Source: Dehalogenimonas etheniformans (lineage in GTDB: Bacteria > Chloroflexota > Dehalococcoidia > Dehalococcoidales > Dehalococcoidaceae). Taken from it: 64,000 nucleotides of DNA. The stretch lies in the NCBI RefSeq assembly GCF_014672715.2, contig NZ_CP058566.2, forward strand, positions 1,302,001 to 1,366,000. The letters are read 5' to 3'. A program made the translations under genes and the position numbers. Numbering within the stretch: position 1 is the first letter of the stretch; every line of letters starts with the position of its first letter. Below, piece by piece: positions 12,776 through 31,573 of this stretch. The notes under the pieces are model-generated. The model was given only the letters and a program-made list of their open reading frames with translations, ran no database searches and had not been told where the DNA came from.

Positions 12776-13005
12776 TTGATTAATTATACTCGGAGGGGCC
12801 TATCCGGTCAATCTCAACATCCCGATTATGTCTTTCTGAGCGTAGCGAAGAATCTCAATGTCACGTCATAACAATCGTCCCCAAATTGTCTTTACGAGCC
12901 TTACCGATCGTCCTTCATCTTTGTAAGTTTATTATTCTCTGCAACTGAAAGGTGACGCTTGAGAGCTATTTAAAAAAATATTCCGCCAAAAACGACACCA
13001 AACGC

Positions 13006-13037
13006 TTGACACCGTTTAGGAACCCCTGTGCTATAAT
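13006..13037 (+). promoter_or_regulatory. Promoter-like element with no obvious gene
   Basis: TTGACA (13006-13011) and an extended -10, TGCTATAAT (TATAAT at 13032-13037). The 20-base spacing is longer than ideal, so the extended -10 may carry the activity. A GC stem with T-run about 150 bases further on could end a short non-coding transcript. Confidence 0.4.
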
Positions 13038-21700: not shown

Positions 21701-22149
21701 AGGTCGAGCTGCTCAAGTCGTCGAAGATTCCGCCGCCGACCATCGACCTGCCGCTGACCGCTTTCATCCCGGAGAGCTACATCCCCGAGGAGTCGATCAG
21801 GCTGGGATTGTATCAACGCCTGGCCGCCATCAAGGATGAGAAGGAACTGGGCGATTTCGAGCGCGAGCTTGTCGACCGGTTCGGACCGACGCCCGTCGAA
21901 GCGCAGAACCTGTCGTACATCATCAGGATGAGGCTGATGGGGCTTAAAGCCGGGATCAAGGCTATCGGCATGGAGAGCGGGCTTATCGCCATCACCTTCC
22001 TGCCGGGCATTGTGCCGGACATCAAGAAGATCTCACCGCTCAAGGACGGCCTCCGGGCGTCGACGAACAAGGTGTGGGTGGATTATCTCCGCCTGGGCAG
22101 CCGTTGGCGGGACCTCCTGGAAGAGACAGTGTGGAGATTGGGGAAATAG
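18709..22149 (+). CDS. mfd: Transcription-repair coupling factor
   Basis: SF2 translocase that removes stalled RNA polymerase and recruits UvrA. Domains in order: the UvrB-like N-terminus, the RNA-polymerase interaction domain starting at GDYVVHIDHGVARF (about residue 483), the translocase with Walker A GDVGYGKTE (about 632) and DEEQ box (about 733), then GRVGRGANLAYAYFLY, and the C-terminal TRCF domain. I use TTG 18709 with GGAG seven bases upstream. The open frame starts at 18592, but that extension overlaps the proB leader. GC content is visibly higher than in neighbouring DNA. Confidence 0.95.
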   Translation: MTDVRGLFPLLLDEPQYKDWLSAVKKAAPTASRLSVIEAARPYLIASLFQATSRPILVVTSQAEKARDLTEQLALWLGDSEVQLFPQQELLPYQRAAVDRANELDSITVLSNLAGLPHKQPFVTVVSADALARTLPSPEIFKDGWLHLTPGSEYPPLELIAALDKLGYRAEHLVEVPGSYSRRGGILDIFPSTENSPVRLEYFGDTVESIRMFDTGTQRSSKRLDSVTIGPATLLLNLDQMPAVNLAGTSEEMRPVLAEELEQLKRGSRPETASFWAPYLNRSTLVDYISDNTIIIVDEPDSVEQAAQFFHDEAECLRAEKTAAEELPRDYPQPYVEWTTLKKKTSRFQNVELASWGTGAGGVVELAIAPSPSYAGRLPAFFKKATELIGQGKRLVVISYQSDRLEELFAEEHVRFSSAENLDKPPARGAITLMYGLLAHGWILSGETYLFTDNELFGFVKERRRPNRRGGGAKRLLLPELEPGDYVVHIDHGVARFAGTVTMEVSGAKREYLQLEYAGEDKLYVPTDQVDRVSRYIGGEGEAPTLNRLGTQEWARSKERAKEAAQEVAAELIELYAARQIVPGYAYSRDTLWQQELEGSFPYVETPDQASALSDVKDDMEKPRPMDRLILGDVGYGKTEVALRAAFKAVMDGKQVAVLVPTTVLAQQHYSTFRARLAAFPLKIEVISRFRTDKEQNAILKALEKGEIDIIIGTHRLLQPDVRFKKLGMLIIDEEQRFGVMHKEFLKRMRQEVDVLTLSATPIPRTLHLSLVGVRDMSVIETPPNERLPIKTFVAGYDDHLVREAILREKERNGQVFFVHNRVQSIYFIAERLKKLIPEASLIIGHGQMPEGELEAAMAQFAAGEVDVLVCTTIIESGLDVPNANTLIVNHADKFGLTQLYQLRGRVGRGANLAYAYFLYEKGKRLTGDAEKRLRTIFEASELGAGYGIAMKDLEIRGAGSLLGTRQSGHISAIGFNLYTQMLSEAVEEQKARRSGKEVELLKSSKIPPPTIDLPLTAFIPESYIPEESIRLGLYQRLAAIKDEKELGDFERELVDRFGPTPVEAQNLSYIIRMRLMGLKAGIKAIGMESGLIAITFLPGIVPDIKKISPLKDGLRASTNKVWVDYLRLGSRWRDLLEETVWRLGK

Positions 22150-22163
22150 ACCCCCACAGGCAG

Positions 22164-22428
22164 GGCGGGCAATCCCGTGGGTCGCTCCTACGAATTTTTG
22201 TTTTGCGCATTTTATCAATATCCAAGGAAACGAACCGGATTTTACGTTCATTTTCTTCGAAAAAGATTTCAAGCCTTTGAAACAATTGGGTCGTTCTGCG
22301 GGCGATCCAATAGGTAACCCCTACAGAGGGCTCGAATTGTATTTGAATTTTCGGCGAAAACAACATTTTTATCCAAAACAATACGTTCAAAATCAAATAA
22401 AACAAAAGCCGGACCTATGAAACAATTC
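22164..22428 (-). repeat. Composite repeat, copy 2 (inverted)
   Basis: The reverse complement carries the same blocks in the same order as 13186-13600: core (22428-22337), a GTAGGGGTTACC..GATCGCCCGC block (22324-22298), a GAACGTAAAATCCG..GATAAAA block (22256-22212) and a CGACCCACGGGATTGCCCGCC block (22192-22164). It occupies nearly the whole gap between mfd and the next gene. Confidence 0.7.
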
Positions 22429-22438
22429 ATCGGCACGG

Positions 22439-22843
22439 TTAAACCAGGTGCCGGGTAATTTCGGCCAGGCGTTCCGGCGGTAAAACGATGTCCCGCTCGA
22501 CCAGATCCAGAGCGAAATCCAGCCTGTCCACGTCCCGATCGCTGGCGACGCCGAACCTGCGCTTCACCAGCTTCATGAAACGCCGAACCGCATTGCCGTA
22601 CATCGCTTCATCGTCTGGAAAACGGCAGGCGATCTCCTTCGCCTGCCAGATAGCGAGAAATATCTCCCGGTCGGCGCGGCCGAGATCGGTGTTCTCCTTG
22701 AGGTAGGCCATGTTGGCCTCGTGGCTCTTGCGGGAATAGAGCCCATGCCTACGAGCGTTGGTATTCCCTTTCGGCGCGCCGCGGCGGCGCTTGGGTGAAT
22801 TGGGTTGTTCTAATGCTTGTACACTTGTTCTATTTTCAGTCAT
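22439..22843 (-). CDS. Phage terminase small-subunit-like protein
   Basis: A 134-residue protein whose N-terminal part holds RRRGAPKGNTNARRHGLYS. The GAPKGNxNAxxHGxYS motif is common in small proteins annotated as terminase small subunits or phage/ICE-associated proteins. The rest is helical and charged (RRFMKLVKRRFG, LDFALDLVERDI). No large terminase, portal or integrase is nearby. It may be a stray cargo gene marking the edge of the accessory island. The match is to a short motif only. Confidence 0.5.
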   Translation of the reverse strand: MTENRTSVQALEQPNSPKRRRGAPKGNTNARRHGLYSRKSHEANMAYLKENTDLGRADREIFLAIWQAKEIACRFPDDEAMYGNAVRRFMKLVKRRFGVASDRDVDRLDFALDLVERDIVLPPERLAEITRHLV

Positions 22844-22937
22844 GCGGGTATTATAGCACAGTAGTTCCCAATGGGTGTCAAGCGTCTCGTGACGTTTTTG
22901 GTGGATTATTTTGTTATGTTAAGCGGTGGTGGGAAAG

Positions 22938-24233
22938 CTAGATTTCATCTTGCTCACTTGGTAATTGCAAATGTTCAATGTTGTCTAATTCTGGTAACGA
23001 ATCCTGGGCAATACCTTGTATTTGTCCAACTATACTGGACATGCCAACCGCTACTCGTTCGAGTTGCATTTCACGTTTCTTCCATGTTCGGTACATAGCG
23101 TTCTTCTCTCGGTCCAAATCAAGTTTCATCTGCTCGAAACCTTCGAATACAGATCTTAGGTTCTGCAAGAATTGGGGAGTGCCTAAATAGGAATAAATAA
23201 GGTCAGCTTTCCGAGCTCTGCCATCATTTTGAGCTTTCAAACTATTCAGTTGAATCAGCATCACCCTCAGGGTTTCGGCGACTGGCCTAACAATCTTGTC
23301 AGAAATAACCCAAACGCCATCGATTATCTTAAAGCCATCACAATCTTTCGGCATTATAGTGCTTACGATTACCGCTACATCCCCATTTGAGGCCAAACAA
23401 TCGTCTTTAACTTTCTGTAGCCATTTATCGGACCAATTTTGAGACCGCTTAGCCTCCCATATGATTGTGCCACACGGGATTCCGGATTGAGAACAAACTT
23501 GTTGCGAGATGTCGGCGCCCCTTACTCCTTTGGCAATTTCTTTGATTAAATCGCTCGGAAATGATTGCCTCAGAAGCGACTCAATTTCCAATTCCAAAAC
23601 CTCACCTTGTAATTGCTGTGAACCCTGCTCCAGTTTCCTAGTGAGTTCCGTATTTGCTTGCGCTGCATCCTCAATTTTCTTCTTGTAGTCAGCCTCTTTT
23701 AGGCGAAACCTCTCAGACTCGATATCGCAAACCCTTTTTTCAATATCCTTTTTGGCGGCTTCTAATTTACGCTCTTGATCGATTTCAAAATTTCGTTTAT
23801 CTTCTTCAAGTTGCTTTTTTTCTTTTCGAAGAGCGCTTTCTTGTTCCCGGAAGTTTTTTATCGAATCCTCTTGTTTCTTAAGCTCTTCTTGTAACTCTTT
23901 ACGTTCTTCGTCAAATTCCTTTGTGGCTCTTTCCTCTGCCTCGATTTTGAGTTTTTTGATCTTTTTTTCAAAATTCTTAAGGGCTAGGTCTTTCTCTTCG
24001 ATCTCGGAACTCAACTCAGAAACTTGTGCTTTAAACAGTTTTTCCGCCTCTTTTGAAGCTTCTTTGGCGAGTTCTTCTCGCATCCCTTTGGATCGTTCTT
24101 CTAATATTTTTTGATACTCTTTCTCATGTAAATCAATTGAATGCCGGCTTATCCCATCCTTGATCTGAAATGTACCCCCACATTTAGGACATAAAATGGT
24201 TTCTTCAGAACTTAACATGATGTTAGAGGACAT
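22938..24233 (-). CDS. DUF2130 protein: zinc-finger-like N-terminus, coiled coil, nuclease-like domain
   Basis: A 431-residue protein. The N-terminus has CPKCGGTFQIKDGISRHSIDLH, a plausible C2H2 zinc finger. Residues about 35-215 are a long Glu/Lys-rich coiled coil. The C-terminal DUF2130 domain follows (LEIESLLRQSFP, GVRGADISQQV, GTIIWEAKRSQNW). Asp241, Glu260 and Lys262 form a PD-(D/E)xK-like set, suggesting DNA cleavage or binding. ATG 24233 is chosen over the upstream frame because GGGAGGT lies seven bases before it. Low GC. Divergent from the OLD-like gene, with 213 bases between. Confidence 0.8.
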   Translation of the reverse strand: MSSNIMLSSEETILCPKCGGTFQIKDGISRHSIDLHEKEYQKILEERSKGMREELAKEASKEAEKLFKAQVSELSSEIEEKDLALKNFEKKIKKLKIEAEERATKEFDEERKELQEELKKQEDSIKNFREQESALRKEKKQLEEDKRNFEIDQERKLEAAKKDIEKRVCDIESERFRLKEADYKKKIEDAAQANTELTRKLEQGSQQLQGEVLELEIESLLRQSFPSDLIKEIAKGVRGADISQQVCSQSGIPCGTIIWEAKRSQNWSDKWLQKVKDDCLASNGDVAVIVSTIMPKDCDGFKIIDGVWVISDKIVRPVAETLRVMLIQLNSLKAQNDGRARKADLIYSYLGTPQFLQNLRSVFEGFEQMKLDLDREKNAMYRTWKKREMQLERVAVGMSSIVGQIQGIAQDSLPELDNIEHLQLPSEQDEI

Positions 24234-24446
24234 TACACTACCTCCCGATAAACGGTCATTTATTTCATGTACTTTAATCTCACAATGAATCCAAGTCAAT
24301 ACTATGCGCATATCAACAAATGTTAAACGAAATATGAATTTGGGTACTCCTGAATGTTTTAATATACTTCGCAAATATTATTGTGAATCAGAGTACAATA
24401 TCAGATAAAAGACCGATCATTCAGTTGCGGAGGCTTTTTTAAACTT
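24234..24446. promoter_or_regulatory. Divergent promoter region of the accessory island
   Basis: An AT-rich 213-base gap between the divergent DUF2130 and OLD-like genes, which must hold both promoters. I see no single convincing -35/-10 pair. GGAGG lies 13 bases before the OLD-like ATG, farther than usual. Confidence 0.4.
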
Positions 24447-26120
24447 ATGGGTATTTGGAAAACACTTAAAATCGAAAACTATCGTTCGGTGGGCTCGCAA
24501 ATTGCTCTATCCTATCCCGAGGGTTTTCCATTGATAGTAGCTGGAGAAAATAACGCTGGTAAATCCAATATCGCCCGAGCTTTGGAGCTAATGTTAGGAG
24601 AGGCTTGGCCAACGACTGAACCCGAAGATCACGACTTTCATAATCGAGATAAAGAATTACCTATCTCGATTGGTGTTGATGTTGAAGGTGTTATTAACAC
24701 GACCGCGGGCGGGCGTTCAAACGAAGTTGCGGGGTTTACCTGGAATTACCCTCCATTAGATAGTAGTGGAAAAACTTTCCGAATGTTATTCAGAAATGGT
24801 GCAGATAATGTATATGTTAGCTCGGAGACCCGAGAACAATGCACCTGTATCCTTATAGATGCGGATCGTCGTCTTTCATACCAATTGAGTTATGCTTCGA
24901 AGTACACTTTTCTTTCAAAATTAATGAGAAAATTTCACCAATCCCTCACAGAAGACCCTGAACGTGTTCGAAGGCTTAAAGAGAAGTTTGAGGAAACCAA
25001 AAGCACATTTCAGGAAGTTGCGCCTTTTATGGCATTTACCGAAGAATTGAGACGTCAGGTGACGGAATTTTCAGGGAATTTCGAGTATGGTTTACAAATA
25101 GATTTTTCGGCGTATGACCCATCCAATTTTTTCCACGCGCTCCGAGTTCAACCTCAACAAGGGGACGAGACATTGTCCTTTGATGAACTTGGAACTGGAC
25201 AGGAACAAGTTCTTGCATTGAGTTTTGCTTATGCATATGCAAGTGCGTTTCACGGCGGGGGCGGTTTAACACTAATTATTGAAGAACCCGAGGCACACCT
25301 ACATCCACTTGCGCAGAAGTGGGTCGCGCTAAAGATCTATGAACTTGCAAGGCAAGGGGTTCAGATTGTAGTAACGACCCATAGCCCGCTTTTCTTGAAT
25401 GTATTGAATCTGAATGGCATTGCCCTTTTGCGCAAACACGACGGTGCCACCCAAGTAACTCAATTAACTTCTCATGACTTATCAACTTACTGTAATGAAC
25501 ACGGAGCTTCGCGAGCAACCCCGGAGAATATCCTCGCTTTTTATGCCGCAGGCGCAACTGATGAGATTATGGCAGGGTTATTCTCGAGGAAAATCGTCCT
25601 CGTGGAGGGGCCTTCGGAAGCACGAGCTCTACCTATCTATTTTAAAAAACTTGGTCTCGAATGCTCTAAGGAGGGAATAGCTATCATCCCAGTACATGGC
25701 GTTGGTAATATTGCTCGATGGTGGCGATTCTTCACTGCCTTCGGGATTCCTACATACGTCATCTTTGACAACGATGCTGACGATGACTTGGAACATGTGA
25801 AAAGAAGTGATATTTTAGATACTCTTTCGGTTACAAACCTGGAAATTCGCACTCGACTACTCAATGCTCGAACGTTAATTTGTGGAGCCCGGTTGGCGGT
25901 GTTTGGCGGGAATTTTGAACAATGTCTACGCACCCTCTTTGGTGAGCAATACATCGACATGGAAAGGCAGGGGAGCCTAATTTATGGGCTTTCTCCAACT
26001 AGAGCAAAACCGTTAGTAGCTCGGTATGTTGCCGAAAATATTTCATACGAACGCGAAGACCTCAGATGGAATGACCTAGTACAACTCAAAGAGAGAATCG
26101 TTGCTTTGGGTACGGCTTGA
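24447..26120 (+). CDS. OLD-family ATPase with C-terminal TOPRIM nuclease domain
   Basis: A 557-residue protein of the OLD (overcoming lysogenization defect) type. The ABC-like ATPase domain starts with LKIENYRSVG and has Walker A GENNAGKSN (residues 33-41), an ABC-like signature near FDELGTGQEQVLALSF (about 245-260), Walker B LTLIIEEPEAHLHP (about 272) and the switch TTHSPLFLN. The TOPRIM domain begins at KIVLVEGPSEA (about 381) with the acidic DNDADDD (about 440). OLD proteins act as nucleases in phage defence, alone or as GajA with a GajB helicase. No helicase lies here; the neighbours are two nuclease-like proteins. Confidence 0.85.
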   Translation: MGIWKTLKIENYRSVGSQIALSYPEGFPLIVAGENNAGKSNIARALELMLGEAWPTTEPEDHDFHNRDKELPISIGVDVEGVINTTAGGRSNEVAGFTWNYPPLDSSGKTFRMLFRNGADNVYVSSETREQCTCILIDADRRLSYQLSYASKYTFLSKLMRKFHQSLTEDPERVRRLKEKFEETKSTFQEVAPFMAFTEELRRQVTEFSGNFEYGLQIDFSAYDPSNFFHALRVQPQQGDETLSFDELGTGQEQVLALSFAYAYASAFHGGGGLTLIIEEPEAHLHPLAQKWVALKIYELARQGVQIVVTTHSPLFLNVLNLNGIALLRKHDGATQVTQLTSHDLSTYCNEHGASRATPENILAFYAAGATDEIMAGLFSRKIVLVEGPSEARALPIYFKKLGLECSKEGIAIIPVHGVGNIARWWRFFTAFGIPTYVIFDNDADDDLEHVKRSDILDTLSVTNLEIRTRLLNARTLICGARLAVFGGNFEQCLRTLFGEQYIDMERQGSLIYGLSPTRAKPLVARYVAENISYEREDLRWNDLVQLKERIVALGTA

Positions 26121-26265
26121 TCAGGGAATGCAATTATATTGCATTTTAACATAATACGTATGGGCAAAGTCTGACAGTCGTGTCCTCTGGGCCGAAAGCG
26201 GATTAGCCTGAATGGGCCCCGTGCAATCTTAGATCATCCCGAAGTCTCTTCCGTGAATATGATAA

Positions 26266-26325
26266 TTTATAATGTGCCTTGACTTTTATAAACGTTAACC
26301 CTATATTGTTTATAACATTATAAAC
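26266..26325 (+). promoter_or_regulatory. Promoter with overlapping palindromic operator and half-sites
   Basis: -35 TTGACT (26279-26284), 17-base spacer, -10 TATATT (26302-26307). Touching the -10 is the inverted repeat GTTTATAA-CA-TTATAAAC (26308-26325). Further half-sites are TTATAAAC within the spacer (26286-26293) and TTTATAA upstream (26266-26272). The layout is that of an autorepressed promoter. The natural candidate repressor is the HTH protein encoded directly downstream. Confidence 0.7.
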
Positions 26326-26339
26326 AGGAGAACGAAGTT

Positions 26340-28376
26340 ATGGGGCTTGCAGGGCTTTCTGAAGTAGCCGAAATGGCGAATGTTACCAAGCAGGTAGTAA
26401 TAAATTGGCGCACAAGGTTTGAAGACTTTCCGTCTCCAGTAGTCGAACTCGCTGCTGGTCCAGTTTGGCTGCGAGAAGACATAAATGATTGGTTAAAAAA
26501 CCGGAAGGAGAATTTGGCTAAACCTACTAATGACCAAATAGATCGTCTCAAAGGATCCGGAGATATTTTAGGGGTGATATATCTCTTGAGCCTAGCCACA
26601 GATAGCGCAGGCTTTAAAGACTGGCTCGTGAAGCAGTTAGGCATTGAAGTTAATCCTCACGTCTTTAACGGTTATATGTTTGCTTTAAGCACACTGATTA
26701 GACTACTTCATATGGCTCTTGATTTAGATTTTAGCCTAGACTTAACCGAGGACTTCACTTTTAGCCGAGCCAGGTTTTACGGCGCCCCTATTGCTGAAGT
26801 TCCTAATAGCTGTGAAAAAGCGATTCTCCTCCGGAATGTCAATCAAGCAGCTCGCAAACTCCTCAACACAAAGTCGTGGGCTCAAATAGAGCAGCAAGCC
26901 AAAGAGTTCGACAAAATGGTCACTGTACCATTCCAGCGAATTTCAACGGTAACTACATTGCGTTTGCCAAAGGTCACACCTGACTATGAAACAGCAGTAA
27001 ATTTCATCGGTCAATGGCATATGCACCTGTTTCTACATGATACGCGACGAGGGTATCCTCACGGCTATCTGCAACCAATGCTGAATGAGAGGCTCGAGAA
27101 AGAAAGGTTGGATGAGGCATTCGACGGATACAAACTCACCGTTCAATATCTATGGTTTAGGCTCTTGGGTAACGAATTTCATCGATCGATTGCAGCTAAT
27201 ATTCATAAAGCTACAAACTGGCGGGAGTTTGACCAATACTACCGTCCAATTCAACATGAACTAATTGACCCAAAAGAGAAAGTCACACATCTGTTTGGAG
27301 GATTTAACACACTAATCGGGGCAAACAATGGAGCCAAACAAAAAATATCTGAACTCCTCCAACCACAGGCAAAAGAACAACCGTTACCGTTGGGAAAGGA
27401 TCTTCAGCGCAGATTTCTATGGTATGACATTGAGCTCATTGATGCATCATCCACCGTATTCAATGGCGTGATGGCATTTATTTCGATACTCAACGGCTTA
27501 GTTGTTTTGCGCACGAGATCTAACAATCCTGAGCATATTTTAGTTATGCGTGTTAAACACCCCGCGGGGGGGACGATTAACGGCAGGCCAAAATTCGACT
27601 ACAGTTATGGGATATTGATAGAAGGCTATGGCAACCTTGGCATCAGCGACTATTCAGGCTGGCTGCTGTTTTTTGATTGTTGTGGTGATTACTCTGGTTT
27701 CGCTGGCAGTCAACACGCAATGGCTGAGCAAGAAATCCAGTTACATCTGAAACAAAAATCTATCGAGATGCACGAAGTCACCGTTGAGAAAGATAAATTC
27801 ATTAAGTCTATGCAAGGTAAGTTACTCTCAACTACTAAGGATGTCATGCATGAAGCTGTGCAAACAAAGTCGGACCTACTCTTAGAAGGCAACAGATTGG
27901 GCGCTGCTCGTGGCGTTTTGCTTGAACTTCTTGGAATGCGACACTATTACAAAAATCATTCTGGAACATTACGAATTGAATGGTCGTTTGAGAGAATTGG
28001 TCAGGAGATAGACCTTTTAATTGGGAGCGCTGATCAATTAACCTTCGTGGAATGCAAGAAGCCAGGAATAAGTAATCCGATTAGCCAGGTGAATAAACTA
28101 AAGGATAAGGTGAAAACTCTTCTTTCTTCAGAGGAATTTATAAAAGAATGGCAGGTCACTTCTGGTGTTAGAAGCGCGCTAGCATTTGCTGTGTGGGACC
28201 GTCCTGCCCTCAATGTCTTCAATACACTTAAGAAAACCGGGGTTGATGTCCTAATCCTATCTTCAGAAGCAGAGAAAGCTGGGATAGGTCAAAAGGCGCG
28301 AGAACATCTAAAATTGGCCCTCGATGCAGACAAATCCAAACCGAAGTTGATACGCGACGAGTTTTTTAAACTATGA
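26340..28376 (+). CDS. HTH protein with C-terminal PD-(D/E)xK nuclease-like domain
   Basis: A 678-residue protein that I cannot assign to a named family. Residues 1-55 look like an AlpA/MerR-type helix-turn-helix (GLSEVAEMANVTKQVVINWRTRF..WLREDINDWL). The large middle region (about 60-530) is helical and unrecognised. Near the C-terminus IGQEIDLLIGSADQLTFVECKKPG gives Asp558, Glu571 and Lys573, a PD-(D/E)xK pattern as in restriction-type nucleases. AGGAG precedes the ATG by six bases. The operator in front suggests autoregulation. Same strand as the OLD-like gene and equally AT-rich. A combined sensor/repressor and nuclease is an inference. Confidence 0.75.
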   Translation: MGLAGLSEVAEMANVTKQVVINWRTRFEDFPSPVVELAAGPVWLREDINDWLKNRKENLAKPTNDQIDRLKGSGDILGVIYLLSLATDSAGFKDWLVKQLGIEVNPHVFNGYMFALSTLIRLLHMALDLDFSLDLTEDFTFSRARFYGAPIAEVPNSCEKAILLRNVNQAARKLLNTKSWAQIEQQAKEFDKMVTVPFQRISTVTTLRLPKVTPDYETAVNFIGQWHMHLFLHDTRRGYPHGYLQPMLNERLEKERLDEAFDGYKLTVQYLWFRLLGNEFHRSIAANIHKATNWREFDQYYRPIQHELIDPKEKVTHLFGGFNTLIGANNGAKQKISELLQPQAKEQPLPLGKDLQRRFLWYDIELIDASSTVFNGVMAFISILNGLVVLRTRSNNPEHILVMRVKHPAGGTINGRPKFDYSYGILIEGYGNLGISDYSGWLLFFDCCGDYSGFAGSQHAMAEQEIQLHLKQKSIEMHEVTVEKDKFIKSMQGKLLSTTKDVMHEAVQTKSDLLLEGNRLGAARGVLLELLGMRHYYKNHSGTLRIEWSFERIGQEIDLLIGSADQLTFVECKKPGISNPISQVNKLKDKVKTLLSSEEFIKEWQVTSGVRSALAFAVWDRPALNVFNTLKKTGVDVLILSSEAEKAGIGQKAREHLKLALDADKSKPKLIRDEFFKL

Positions 28377-28390
28377 TCATGCCGTCTGAC

Positions 28391-28552
28391 CTATTTTCCT
28401 GGAGGAGTGGCGACACAGCAAGCAGAGAAAACGGGTGACATCCGCATGAACTTGATACCATTAACTTCCTGCTCAGGACCGGTCGGATCGAACCCGAGTT
28501 TCCGATAAACCGGTACGGCGTCCGGACACGAGTTTACAAGCTGGATCAGCCA
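28391..28552 (-). pseudogene. C-terminal remnant of a GNAT acetyltransferase
   Basis: The minus-strand frame reads WLIQLVNSCPDAVPVYRKLG followed by FDPTGPEQEVNGIKF, the typical C-terminal end of a GNAT acetyltransferase (PVYRKLGF..TGPE), before a TAG at 28391. The acetyl-CoA-binding core is missing, and the frame runs into the 3' end of the PfpI-like gene. It is best explained as a decayed fragment. Confidence 0.45.
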
Positions 28553-29181
28553 TTGCCAGACGGCAAAGTTTGCATCAGGGCAAAGAAATGTTCAGGCTTA
28601 CCGGTACTGAAATATTGATACCAAGATTCCAGTGTGTTTGATTGAAAAACACCTAAATGCTCAATAATTTGTTTCGCCCACAACAAAGCCCCGGTGGAAC
28701 CGGCAGTAATAAGGTGGTTATCCGCTACAGATGGCTGGTCAATATAAAAACTTTGCCCTTTATAGCCTGGAGAAACCATTTCAAGAAATCCCGGCCCGTT
28801 ACTAGTATGCGGACGCTTATCCAATAGCCCAAAGTGAGCAAGCGCAGCTGTAGCTCCGCAGATGGCACACACCATAGCGCCTGAAGAGAGAAATTCGCTT
28901 GCTTTCTCGATAATCGCGCCATGCTTCGGGTCGTTCCATGTATTGGCGCCCGGTAACAGCAACGCGGTGGTTCCTCTCACTACAACATCGTCAATCAAGC
29001 AATCGGGCATGATGGTCATCCCGCCCATTGTTTTGATCGGCTCTTTGGAATAACTAACCGTTTTGAGCGATACGGGGTACGCGCCCTTTTTGAAAAATCG
29101 GCCGGAATTCAACTCCGAAGTAACGTACCCCAGTTCCCAATCGGCCAAAGTATCAAGAACGTAAACATAGACTGTAGACAT
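28546..29181 (-). CDS. DJ-1/PfpI-family protein
   Basis: A 211-residue class I glutamine-amidotransferase-like protein. The likely nucleophile Cys lies in MVCAICGATAALAHFGLL, the nucleophile-elbow position, after ALLLPGANTWND. Members range from glyoxalases and chaperones to proteases and regulators, and the substrate cannot be inferred. An ATG start follows GGAGGAAAT. It stands alone between repeat-rich stretches. Confidence 0.8.
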   Translation of the reverse strand: MSTVYVYVLDTLADWELGYVTSELNSGRFFKKGAYPVSLKTVSYSKEPIKTMGGMTIMPDCLIDDVVVRGTTALLLPGANTWNDPKHGAIIEKASEFLSSGAMVCAICGATAALAHFGLLDKRPHTSNGPGFLEMVSPGYKGQSFYIDQPSVADNHLITAGSTGALLWAKQIIEHLGVFQSNTLESWYQYFSTGKPEHFFALMQTLPSGNG

Positions 29182-29219
29182 AGATTTCCTCCATTTTCAT
29201 TGTGTGTCTAATTCGCCTT

Positions 29220-29414
29220 CTATTTACCCTGGTATTGTACTCGGACAGGGCAATAACGCACAGCTTCGGCCAGCCGCTCATAACGAGTATATTCGGCGGC
29301 GATGCTGATGTCATCGAAAAGCCCATAGCCTGACATATGATGAACATCGTTTTTGTTCATTTCAGTTGCGTATTGCCAGTTCGAAGTCTGGCAGAGTTTT
29401 CTAGGATTTTCCAT
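29220..29414 (-). CDS. Doubtful small ORF upstream of the PfpI-like gene
   Basis: A 64-residue open frame, hydrophilic, with no recognisable domain (HHMSGYGLFDDISIAAEYTR). No good ribosome site precedes its ATG. It lies in line with the PfpI-like gene and could be a fragment of a lost gene. Confidence 0.25.
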   Translation of the reverse strand: MENPRKLCQTSNWQYATEMNKNDVHHMSGYGLFDDISIAAEYTRYERLAEAVRYCPVRVQYQGK

Positions 29415-29524
29415 GTGACCAGTTTAGTTGAGCAGCGGAAATAATGATTCGGCCATTGGTATGGACTTTCACTAGACATTCGGGGAGTTTTTAACGACGC
29501 CTTCGAGAACGTCGTAAATTTTCA

Positions 29525-29600
29525 TCGGTGTACTATTTGGGGACGATTGCCACGGACTGCCATTCAAGGCAGTCCTCGCAAAGACAGATTGGGGAGAGGG
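29525..29600 (+). repeat. Dispersed hairpin repeat (GGACTGCC family), copy A
   Basis: The unit begins TCGGTGTACTATTTGGGGAC and contains the hairpin GGACTGCC (29554-29561) / GGCAGTCC (29568-29575), followed by TCGCAAAGACAGATTGGGGAG. Related copies lie at 30020-30090, 31308-31380 and, diverged, 34774-34845. Confidence 0.7.
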
Positions 29601-29690
29601 ATGGAGATAAAAACCGAAACCATTTTTTGAATCTGCTTGGTTTTTGTTATTCTGATCAAAGAACCGCTGAAATAAATACGGAGAATTGCT

Positions 29691-29936
29691 TTGAAAGCCG
29701 AGGATTCTGTCAGCTCAGCCCAGTTAAATCAGAATGAAGCGATCAAAGACTGCCTGTGCCGTATGTGCCCTTCGTATATCGAGTGTGAAGAGCCGGTAGG
29801 GTTCTGCGTTTCACCCAAGCCCAGCAAATGCATCGATGCCGAAGCAGGTTGCCTGTGTCTTGGCTGCCCGTGGTGGGTACGGAATTCTTTACGTCATGTA
29901 TACTTCTGCACCCGGGGAGCTGAAGCTACGCAATGA
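29691..29936 (+). CDS. Cysteine-rich DUF2769-like protein
   Basis: An 81-residue protein with at least nine cysteines: CLCRMCPSY, FCVSPKPSKC, AGCLCLGCPWW and YFCTRGAE. The paired C-x-C-xx-C(P) motifs, the central KPSKCI and the closing YFC-RG match DUF2769-type proteins of anaerobes. The cysteine pattern suggests metal or Fe-S binding. A TTG start lies seven bases after GGAG. It sits just after a dispersed repeat and has no operon partners. Confidence 0.65.
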   Translation: MKAEDSVSSAQLNQNEAIKDCLCRMCPSYIECEEPVGFCVSPKPSKCIDAEAGCLCLGCPWWVRNSLRHVYFCTRGAEATQ

Positions 29937-30314
29937 CCATGGATTCCGGACTTCGACGGAATGAAAAACAGGGCAAAGAACGACAGGGAGGACGAGGCGT
30001 GCCTCGCCCTACATTTGGATCGGTGTACTGTTCGGGGACAATTGCCACGGATTGTCAGGCAATCCTCGCAAAGACAGTTTTGGGGGAGAGATTGTTGTTA
30101 AGGTAAGATTACGATTTCTTCGTCCTCGGTGAATGGCTCGCAACGACGAAGGTGGTGGGTTACGCGATGCTTCACCCACCCTACGGACCGATTGGGACTC
30201 CAACGACGAGGCGGGCACGGCAACACGTCGCCACTATAGCATTCATTTCCCCTTGCTCAGATTTTTTCGAGGGTAAGCAACGATGGATTTGAGGGGGTAA
30301 GGGTGTTCAAGACC
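29937..30314. repeat. Gene-free repeat cluster (copy B and a GGTGGGT hairpin)
   Basis: No gene is visible. The stretch holds GACGAGGCGTGCCTCGCCCTAC, GGACTGCC-family copy B (30020-30090), a GGTGGGT..ACCCACC hairpin unit ending in CCCTACGGA (30151-30188), and a GACGAGGCGGGCACGGCA fragment (about 30206). The same modules recur at 31270-31480 and 35590-35757. Confidence 0.6.
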
Positions 30315-31154
30315 CTAAACCGTGTCAGGAGTGAGCGGTTCGGGTTGCCTGCCGTCGATGTCAGTAAAACCATATTCCCTTGCGATAGCTGCGGCGACGC
30401 TAACTTTCCCTGAATGTTTCATGATGTCCGGGTCCGATGCCAATGCGGCGACGGCACGGCCAATGAACTGGGGAGACTCGCTATTGGAAAGATCAAGGAA
30501 CTCTGCTGCTCTCATCACGCTTTCCGTCCTCACCAGACCCGGATAAAGTGAAATTACAGCAACATTATATGGCCGGAGTTCCTGCGCCATATAGACGGTT
30601 AGTTTATCCGTGGCAGCTTTAGCGACACCATAGGGGACGTTGCCGATCAATTTTTGCGCAGACCAAAAAGAGATGTTAATTATAAGACCTCTCTTTCGCC
30701 GAACCATGTCCCGCGCGGCGAGAACGCCCGCCACATAATGGGCCCGAACACCAGCCTGAAACATCTTGTCCCAGCGCGACAGCGGTTGTTCCCAGAAAGG
30801 AAGGCTCCATGTGAATTTTCCGTTTTCCGCCATTCCTTCGTAGCCGCCCCAAACATTGTTCACAAGAATGTCGAGGTGTTCTTGTTCAGCGAATATTCTA
30901 TCGAAAACACGTCGGACCTGAGAGTCATCCCGATGGTCGCACGGCACGGCGATTACCTTGCCGCCTAATTTCCCGGCCTCTCGCGCGGTGTCCAGCACCG
31001 TGCCGGGAAGTCCTTCCGGCCCTTCTCCGGGTTCAGTAGTCCTACCGGTTACGTAGACTGTAGTGTTAGCCTCGGCGAGTCCCAGGGTAATCCCCTTTCC
31101 TACACCTCTGCTGGCTCCGGTTACCAGGGCGATTTTGTCTGTAAGATCAAACAT
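30315..31154 (-). CDS. Short-chain dehydrogenase/reductase
   Basis: A classical SDR oxidoreductase of 279 residues. It has the NAD(P) loop VTGASRGVGKG, NNVWGGYEG in place of the usual NNAG, catalytic Ser in INISFWSAQ and Tyr/Lys in YGVAKAATDKL. The Trp-rich segment TWSLPFWEQPLSRWDKMFQAGVR is a lineage-specific substrate loop. ATG 31154 is chosen over an upstream frame because GGAGAAAGAGAG precedes it. The substrate is unknown, and the gene is alone on both sides. Confidence 0.85.
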   Translation of the reverse strand: MFDLTDKIALVTGASRGVGKGITLGLAEANTTVYVTGRTTEPGEGPEGLPGTVLDTAREAGKLGGKVIAVPCDHRDDSQVRRVFDRIFAEQEHLDILVNNVWGGYEGMAENGKFTWSLPFWEQPLSRWDKMFQAGVRAHYVAGVLAARDMVRRKRGLIINISFWSAQKLIGNVPYGVAKAATDKLTVYMAQELRPYNVAVISLYPGLVRTESVMRAAEFLDLSNSESPQFIGRAVAALASDPDIMKHSGKVSVAAAIAREYGFTDIDGRQPEPLTPDTV

Positions 31155-31573
31155 ATATATCTCTCTTTCTCCATTTGATACAGAATAAATCATGATATAC
31201 GAAGTCACCAACTTGCCGGCCAGTTTTATCCTACCCGAGAAGCTAGACTATTGTAGTGTGGTTTTCAGTATACAGCGGGTGCGACACGCCGTGCCCCTAC
31301 ATTTTGATCGGTGTACTATTCGGGGACGATTGCTACGGACTGCCATTCAAGGCAGTCCTCGCAAAGACAGATTGGGGAGGGAATTTGCTTAGGGCAGATC
31401 GATATTGCTTCATCCCGACTGGTCGTGACTCGCAACGAAGTAGGTGGTGGGTTACGCTATGCTTCACCCACCCTACGGACTCCTCTTCCACAAGGGGCGA
31501 GGAAAGCACGCGGATCCCTTCGACAGACTCCCCGACGCCTCGAGGCATTGGTGGCAAACCCTATTACCTCGAT
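31155..31573. repeat. Gene-free repeat cluster (copy C and a GGTGGGT hairpin)
   Basis: It contains GACACGCCGTGCCCCTAC (31283-31300), GGACTGCC-family copy C (31308-31380), a GGTGGGT..ACCCACC hairpin unit (31443-31480), and an AAGGGGCGAGGAAAGCACGC segment whose counterpart is near 35605. No gene is seen. Confidence 0.6.

Follow-up and report, generated by a model that had tools for sequence, protein, structure and literature searches.

Here, we describe an exchangeable segment in the genome of Dehalogenimonas etheniformans (2.07 Mb, single contig) that carries three long genes for nuclease-like proteins: a DUF2130 protein, an OLD-type ABC ATPase with a TOPRIM domain, and a 678-residue HTH protein, hereafter gene 3. 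We consider it moderately likely that these are three separately acting, probably defensive genes that share a small hotspot of cargo swapping found in two sister species. All positions refer to the window, the whole stretch of 64,000 nucleotides that was analysed (NZ_CP058566.2, positions 1,302,001 to 1,366,000), and the features are collected in Table 1. The original prediction for this DNA had placed the three open reading frames correctly, and all are intact; its description of an acquired, defence-type cluster of three nuclease-like proteins is supported by what follows, while its joining of the three into one system is not.

Table 1. Features of the exchangeable segment and its left border (window coordinates)
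Feature	Position	Strand	Basis or remark
Dispersed intergenic repeat copy	22866..22925	-	End is the left island breakpoint; common to sister genome G256 up to 22925
Exchangeable cargo (island)	22926..28460		42.8% G+C; G256 has different cargo at the same place
DUF2130 protein, 431 aa from ATG	22938..24233	-	Pfam DUF2130 6e-56
OLD-type ABC ATPase + TOPRIM, 557 aa, Class-1-like	24447..26120	+	Pfam, residues, structure match
Promoter-like site of gene 3, TTGACT-17-TATATT	26279..26307	+	Consensus match only
Perfect palindrome GTTTATAACATTATAAAC, candidate operator	26308..26325		Directly behind the gene-3 -10
Gene 3, 678 aa	26340..28376	+	ORF intact; HTH match, motif conservation

The segment was delimited by DNA comparison with G256, the closest relative within the genus (Mfd 86% identical). 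Similarity between the two genomes takes in the last part of mfd, then a small gene of GAPKGN type and a copy of a dispersed repeat, ends at 22925 and restarts at 28461, ahead of a DJ-1/PfpI gene; both breakpoints are sharp and the island lies between them. At the same place G256 carries two zinc-ribbon proteins, a NUDIX protein, a 2H phosphoesterase and a DUF3644 protein (L027:5342-9718). This other cargo is in part defence-like (NUDIX, 2H phosphoesterase, DUF3644), and DUF3644 overlaps a HEPN family reported from restriction-modification (R-M) operons (PMC3710099). Common flanks around different cargo indicate a cargo-swapping hotspot, that is, a locus whose cargo is exchangeable within one species pair; the DNA downstream of mfd differs in the six remaining genomes of the genus. 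In the sister genome the flanking DJ-1/PfpI gene is interrupted by stop codons (L026; L027:9799-10350).

Base composition sets the cargo apart from its surroundings, as had been predicted. G+C is 0.41 for the DUF2130 gene, 0.45 for OLD and 0.44 for gene 3 versus 0.62 for mfd next door, and the corresponding GC3 values are 0.40, 0.39 and 0.42 versus 0.80. The G256 cargo is likewise AT-rich with low GC3. The nearby repeat, also correctly recognized in the original prediction, belongs to a set of about 25 copies scattered through this genome, with 21 counterparts in G256. Its unit measures roughly 110 bp, with a further copy at 12986-13012; several copies carry TTGACA-17/18-TATAAT on one strand, followed after 6-8 nt by a start codon in an arrangement of the leaderless type, but a GAPKGN-type ORF is present in only 3 of the 30 repeat loci examined. 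The gene that had been likened to a terminase small subunit does adjoin the cluster, but the label is weak, with matches over short stretches (NCBIfam 0.0017, PHROG 3.7e-4), and the gene is a flank common to G256, outside the insertion.

The DUF2130 ORF (22938-24374, minus strand, ATG at 24233) encodes a protein that scores 189.9 bits against a curated Pfam cut-off of 26.7. An N-terminal CPxCGG zinc-ribbon-like stretch is followed by a coiled coil and a C-terminal PD-(D/E)xK-like core, in which D241, E260 and K262 are the residues picked out originally; the D, E (or D) and K are retained in nine DUF2130 proteins. The protein would probably act as a PD-(D/E)xK nuclease with zinc ribbon and coiled coil. 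PADLOC matches to LmuB and JetC fall within this coiled coil and were discarded as artefactual, a search for a solved relative found none, and no functional paper on DUF2130/PF09903/COG4487 was found by title or abstract. Across the seven other genomes of the genus the Pfam model detects one diverged copy, in G106; this copy escaped the protein search of the genus, and statements on DUF2130 absence are therefore based on the Pfam search.

The OLD protein matches AAA_15 (1e-28) and OLD-like_TOPRIM (5e-21) in Pfam. Its key residues are K39 of Walker A, E279/E280, H312 and, in the TOPRIM domain, E387/E391/D441/D443/E491. Conservation extends over Walker A, EEPEAHLHP, the H-loop and the TOPRIM residues, so that the ATPase and TOPRIM sites are intact, and it accords with the mapping of metal-binding residues in TsOLD (PMC7049728). 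A structure model built with 31 sequences (pLDDT 85) found TsOLD as its best structure match (Foldseek E 1.3e-28). Superposition with TsOLD (6p74) gave a VIA Z of 25.0 with an rmsd of 5.8 over 467 residues, compared with a Z of 18.9 and an rmsd of 5.5 over 471 residues for GajA (8x5i). Both fold, with TsOLD nearer than GajA, and architecture, an N-terminal ABC ATPase fused to a C-terminal TOPRIM domain with acidic metal-binding residues, are those of Class 1 OLD proteins. No OLD homologue was detectable in the seven other genomes of the genus. A Pfam scan of seven neighbouring proteins revealed neither a UvrD/PcrA/Rep-like helicase partner nor retron genes, and positions 22000-30500 gave no Rfam match. 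The original statement that the locus is not Gabija, PARIS or a retron is supported: the neighbours include no helicase and no RT, the TOPRIM domain is fused to the ATPase, and there is no Rfam match.

Relatives of this protein led to an association with R-M genes. Of the 41 close OLD relatives, 14 have a same-strand R-M gene no more than 350 bp away, and of 43 distant OLDs none has, a count that treats loci without correction for kinship and that is circular, having used seeds from close loci; all adjacent genes were rescanned with Pfam. In the rescan R-M families were the leading neighbours of the close set; in the distant set the lead fell to phage genes and, as in Gabija, to UvrD helicase, and one restriction endonuclease and one methylase occurred. 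The neighbours include type I, IIG, III and other R-M types. OLD and R-M genes overlap by 8 bases in L067 and by 4 in L069 and L076, are separated by 7 in L066 and L078 and by 22-25 in Bacillota type III loci, and also abut or overlap on a Bacillus badius plasmid and a Mesorhizobium plasmid. Class-1-like OLD genes that adjoin or overlap R-M genes of different types were recorded at L066, L067, L068, L069, L076, L078, L089 and L097.

In a tree of OLD proteins the row nearest to the window OLD is L068, which has an R-M neighbour (support 85/86). The five nearest rows are all R-M-labelled and the enclosing clade is mixed. The R-M label requires 11 changes on the tree, at least 9 of them forced by well-supported branches, and R-M coupling has therefore been gained or lost repeatedly. 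The window OLD is an orphan of this R-M-linked branch, with no R-M gene beside it among the neighbours from 22439 to 31211 (Pfam). Many of its relatives likewise have no R-M gene, and the orphan state is not unusual.

Gene 3 consists of an excisionase/AlpA-like HTH (about residues 3-60), an undescribed middle part and a C-terminal PD-(D/E)xK-like core (E529, D558, E571, K573), the last three being residues that had been named correctly at the outset. E529 and D558 are aligned in all three gene-3 relatives; the ExK is exact in two, and in the third, from G531, an ESK stands one column off. No Pfam family exceeds its cut-off (Glyco_transf_20, at E 0.09, falls below it and was rejected), and Pfam, NCBIfam, PADLOC and PDB contain no specific match. 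A profile of the C-terminus, searched against the PDB, reached Card1, a DUF1887 protein and UPF0102, all of PD-(D/E)xK families, with E of 0.4-1. Comparison of the same region with Card1-type sequences by hhalign gave a score of 26.3, where 30 column-shuffled controls reached at most 18.8, at a probability of 11%. A single-sequence model of the C-terminus (pLDDT 36) was unusable. Judged from motif conservation, gene 3 likely has a PD-(D/E)xK fold.

Gene 3 belongs to a very rare, undescribed family. Two full-length relatives were found, one on the Haloarcula plasmid pHMA133 (WP_011222360.1, a hypothetical protein; L002:7971-9815; 22% identity by tblastn) and one in G531, a member of the same class; both are without the HTH. 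No homologue was detectable in the seven other genomes of the genus, and no relative appeared in 301 genomes of the phylum, in the protein scan of genome contigs or in gene-3-based scans of viral contigs. The 393 genomes of the class yielded one distant relative, that of G531, and one HTH-only match. In G469, also of this class, a gene-3-type HTH heads a ParA-like ATPase (L016:5285-6316). Such a fusion marks the HTH as a mobile module.

The arrangement of the three genes, read from sequence, suggests three transcription units, one for DUF2130 on the minus strand, a divergent one for OLD, and a third for gene 3 with its own promoter. The start codons of DUF2130 and OLD are 213 bp apart, and the two could share regulation; OLD and gene 3 stand in tandem on the same strand, separated by 219 bp. 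The palindrome directly behind the promoter-like site of gene 3 has no second copy in the genome even when one mismatch is allowed, and 0.01 occurrences are expected in the window with up to two. The original prediction had cast the HTH protein as a repressor; self-repression of gene 3 through this palindrome is possible given its position, and as a shared operator the palindrome was not found before DUF2130 or OLD, nor elsewhere in the genome.

Could the three genes nonetheless form an obligate defence system, with OLD as the sensor, the DUF2130 and HTH proteins as effectors, and the HTH protein also as repressor of the locus? The trio fills the whole exchangeable segment with little else and its low G+C is common to all, so the genes may have come in jointly; catalytic residues are kept in all three proteins. 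Against this, the palindrome stands before only one of the genes, and co-occurrence fails in every set of loci. The fetched flanks of 99 OLD loci, obtained from OLD-protein scans of genome and viral collections, contain no DUF2130 or gene-3 relative, with up to 10 kb covered a side; for most metagenomic loci one flank or both fell short of 10 kb. No OLD or gene-3 relative occurs at nine DUF2130 loci (three plasmid/phage records and six genomes of the phylum), and neither full-length gene-3 relative has OLD or DUF2130 nearby, although with only two such relatives this last observation is weak evidence. The original prediction had itself named independent occurrence elsewhere as what would speak against a single system, and relatives of each gene do occur without the other two, as far as this is testable. 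We therefore regard an obligate three-gene system as very improbable. A lineage-specific defence system that combines an orphaned OLD nuclease of R-M type with a DUF2130 nuclease and with an HTH nuclease that represses itself and belongs to an undescribed family has, in our estimate, very little chance of being correct.

A narrower partnership would make OLD and gene 3 a two-gene unit, the OLD-type ATPase controlling the PD-(D/E)xK nuclease, with DUF2130 as a bystander. Their tandem, same-strand placement would fit such a unit, and there is precedent in WonAB, an OLD-related ATPase paired with a PD-(D/E)xK effector (PMC12137116), and in BREX loci, where OLD ATPases are reported to be paired with PD-(D/E)xK REases (PMC12839542). 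However, the window OLD retains a TOPRIM nuclease of its own, gene 3 has its own promoter-like site, and none of the 99 OLD loci has a gene-3 relative nearby, which makes the pairing quite unlikely. We also find it unlikely that the genes are leftovers of larger systems, such as an R-M locus minus its R-M genes, stranded in a mobile-gene hotspot with no present defence role. The OLD branch is R-M-linked elsewhere and unaccompanied here, and the interrupted DJ-1 gene of the sister genome indicates that decay occurs at this site; yet the three long ORFs are intact with their catalytic residues kept, and OLD relatives without R-M genes are common.

Under the reading that we favour, of three separately acting genes, the OLD protein would be an ATP-gated TOPRIM nuclease. 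Those of its relatives that lie beside R-M genes are probably back-up effectors that would fire when restriction is blocked or fails. In BREX and related systems, OLD-TOPRIM proteins have already been described in the role of back-up effectors (PMC12839542), and the principle is thus not new. The orphan OLD described here would work alone, like other Class 1 OLD proteins; isolated OLD proteins are able to restrict phages alone (YbjD, PMC13261556). The DUF2130 protein would form its own single-gene unit as a presumed nuclease, and gene 3 would probably be a DNA-binding PD-(D/E)xK nuclease that curbs its own expression through the promoter palindrome.

Together, two sister genomes display one cargo-swapping hotspot, a rare HTH-PD-(D/E)xK-like family undescribed in the curated libraries used is brought to notice, and a branch of Class-1-like OLD nucleases emerges as repeatedly R-M-coupled, though Class 1 is described as isolated genes.

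Compared with known nucleases, the gene-3 core E-[IL]-D...E-C-K aligns with those of Card1/Can2 (DUF1887) and UPF0102 proteins, but the homology is not significant, and gene 3 adds an HTH and the undescribed middle part. In layout, WonAB likewise has an OLD-type ATPase near a PD-(D/E)xK-like protein (PMC12137116); here, by contrast, no operon is evident and the ATPase retains its TOPRIM domain. PARIS has an AriA ATPase without TOPRIM and a separate AriB TOPRIM protein, whereas in the window OLD the two are fused. Retrons with an OLD effector differ in that the neighbours here include no RT family and the region has no Rfam match, a comparison that retron ncRNAs outside Rfam would escape.

Gabija GajA has the same ABC ATPase and TOPRIM fold (VIA Z about 18-19) but is structurally less similar than TsOLD, and no GajB-like helicase accompanies the window OLD, neither of whose neighbours has a helicase family (UvrD-like or other). 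Relatives of the window OLD overlap or abut R-M genes in the manner of the BREX/R-M-like OLD-TOPRIM auxiliary effectors (PMC12839542), whereas none adjoins the window OLD itself. The closest likeness is to Class 1 OLD proteins (Thermus scotoductus OLD, P2 Old, E. coli YbjD/OldB), which have the same ATPase and TOPRIM architecture with no helicase or reverse transcriptase partner; TsOLD is also the best sequence match, at 21-24% identity in structural alignments. Class 1 has been described as single genes away from other defence genes (PMC10568477), whereas the window OLD comes from a branch that is often R-M-coupled.
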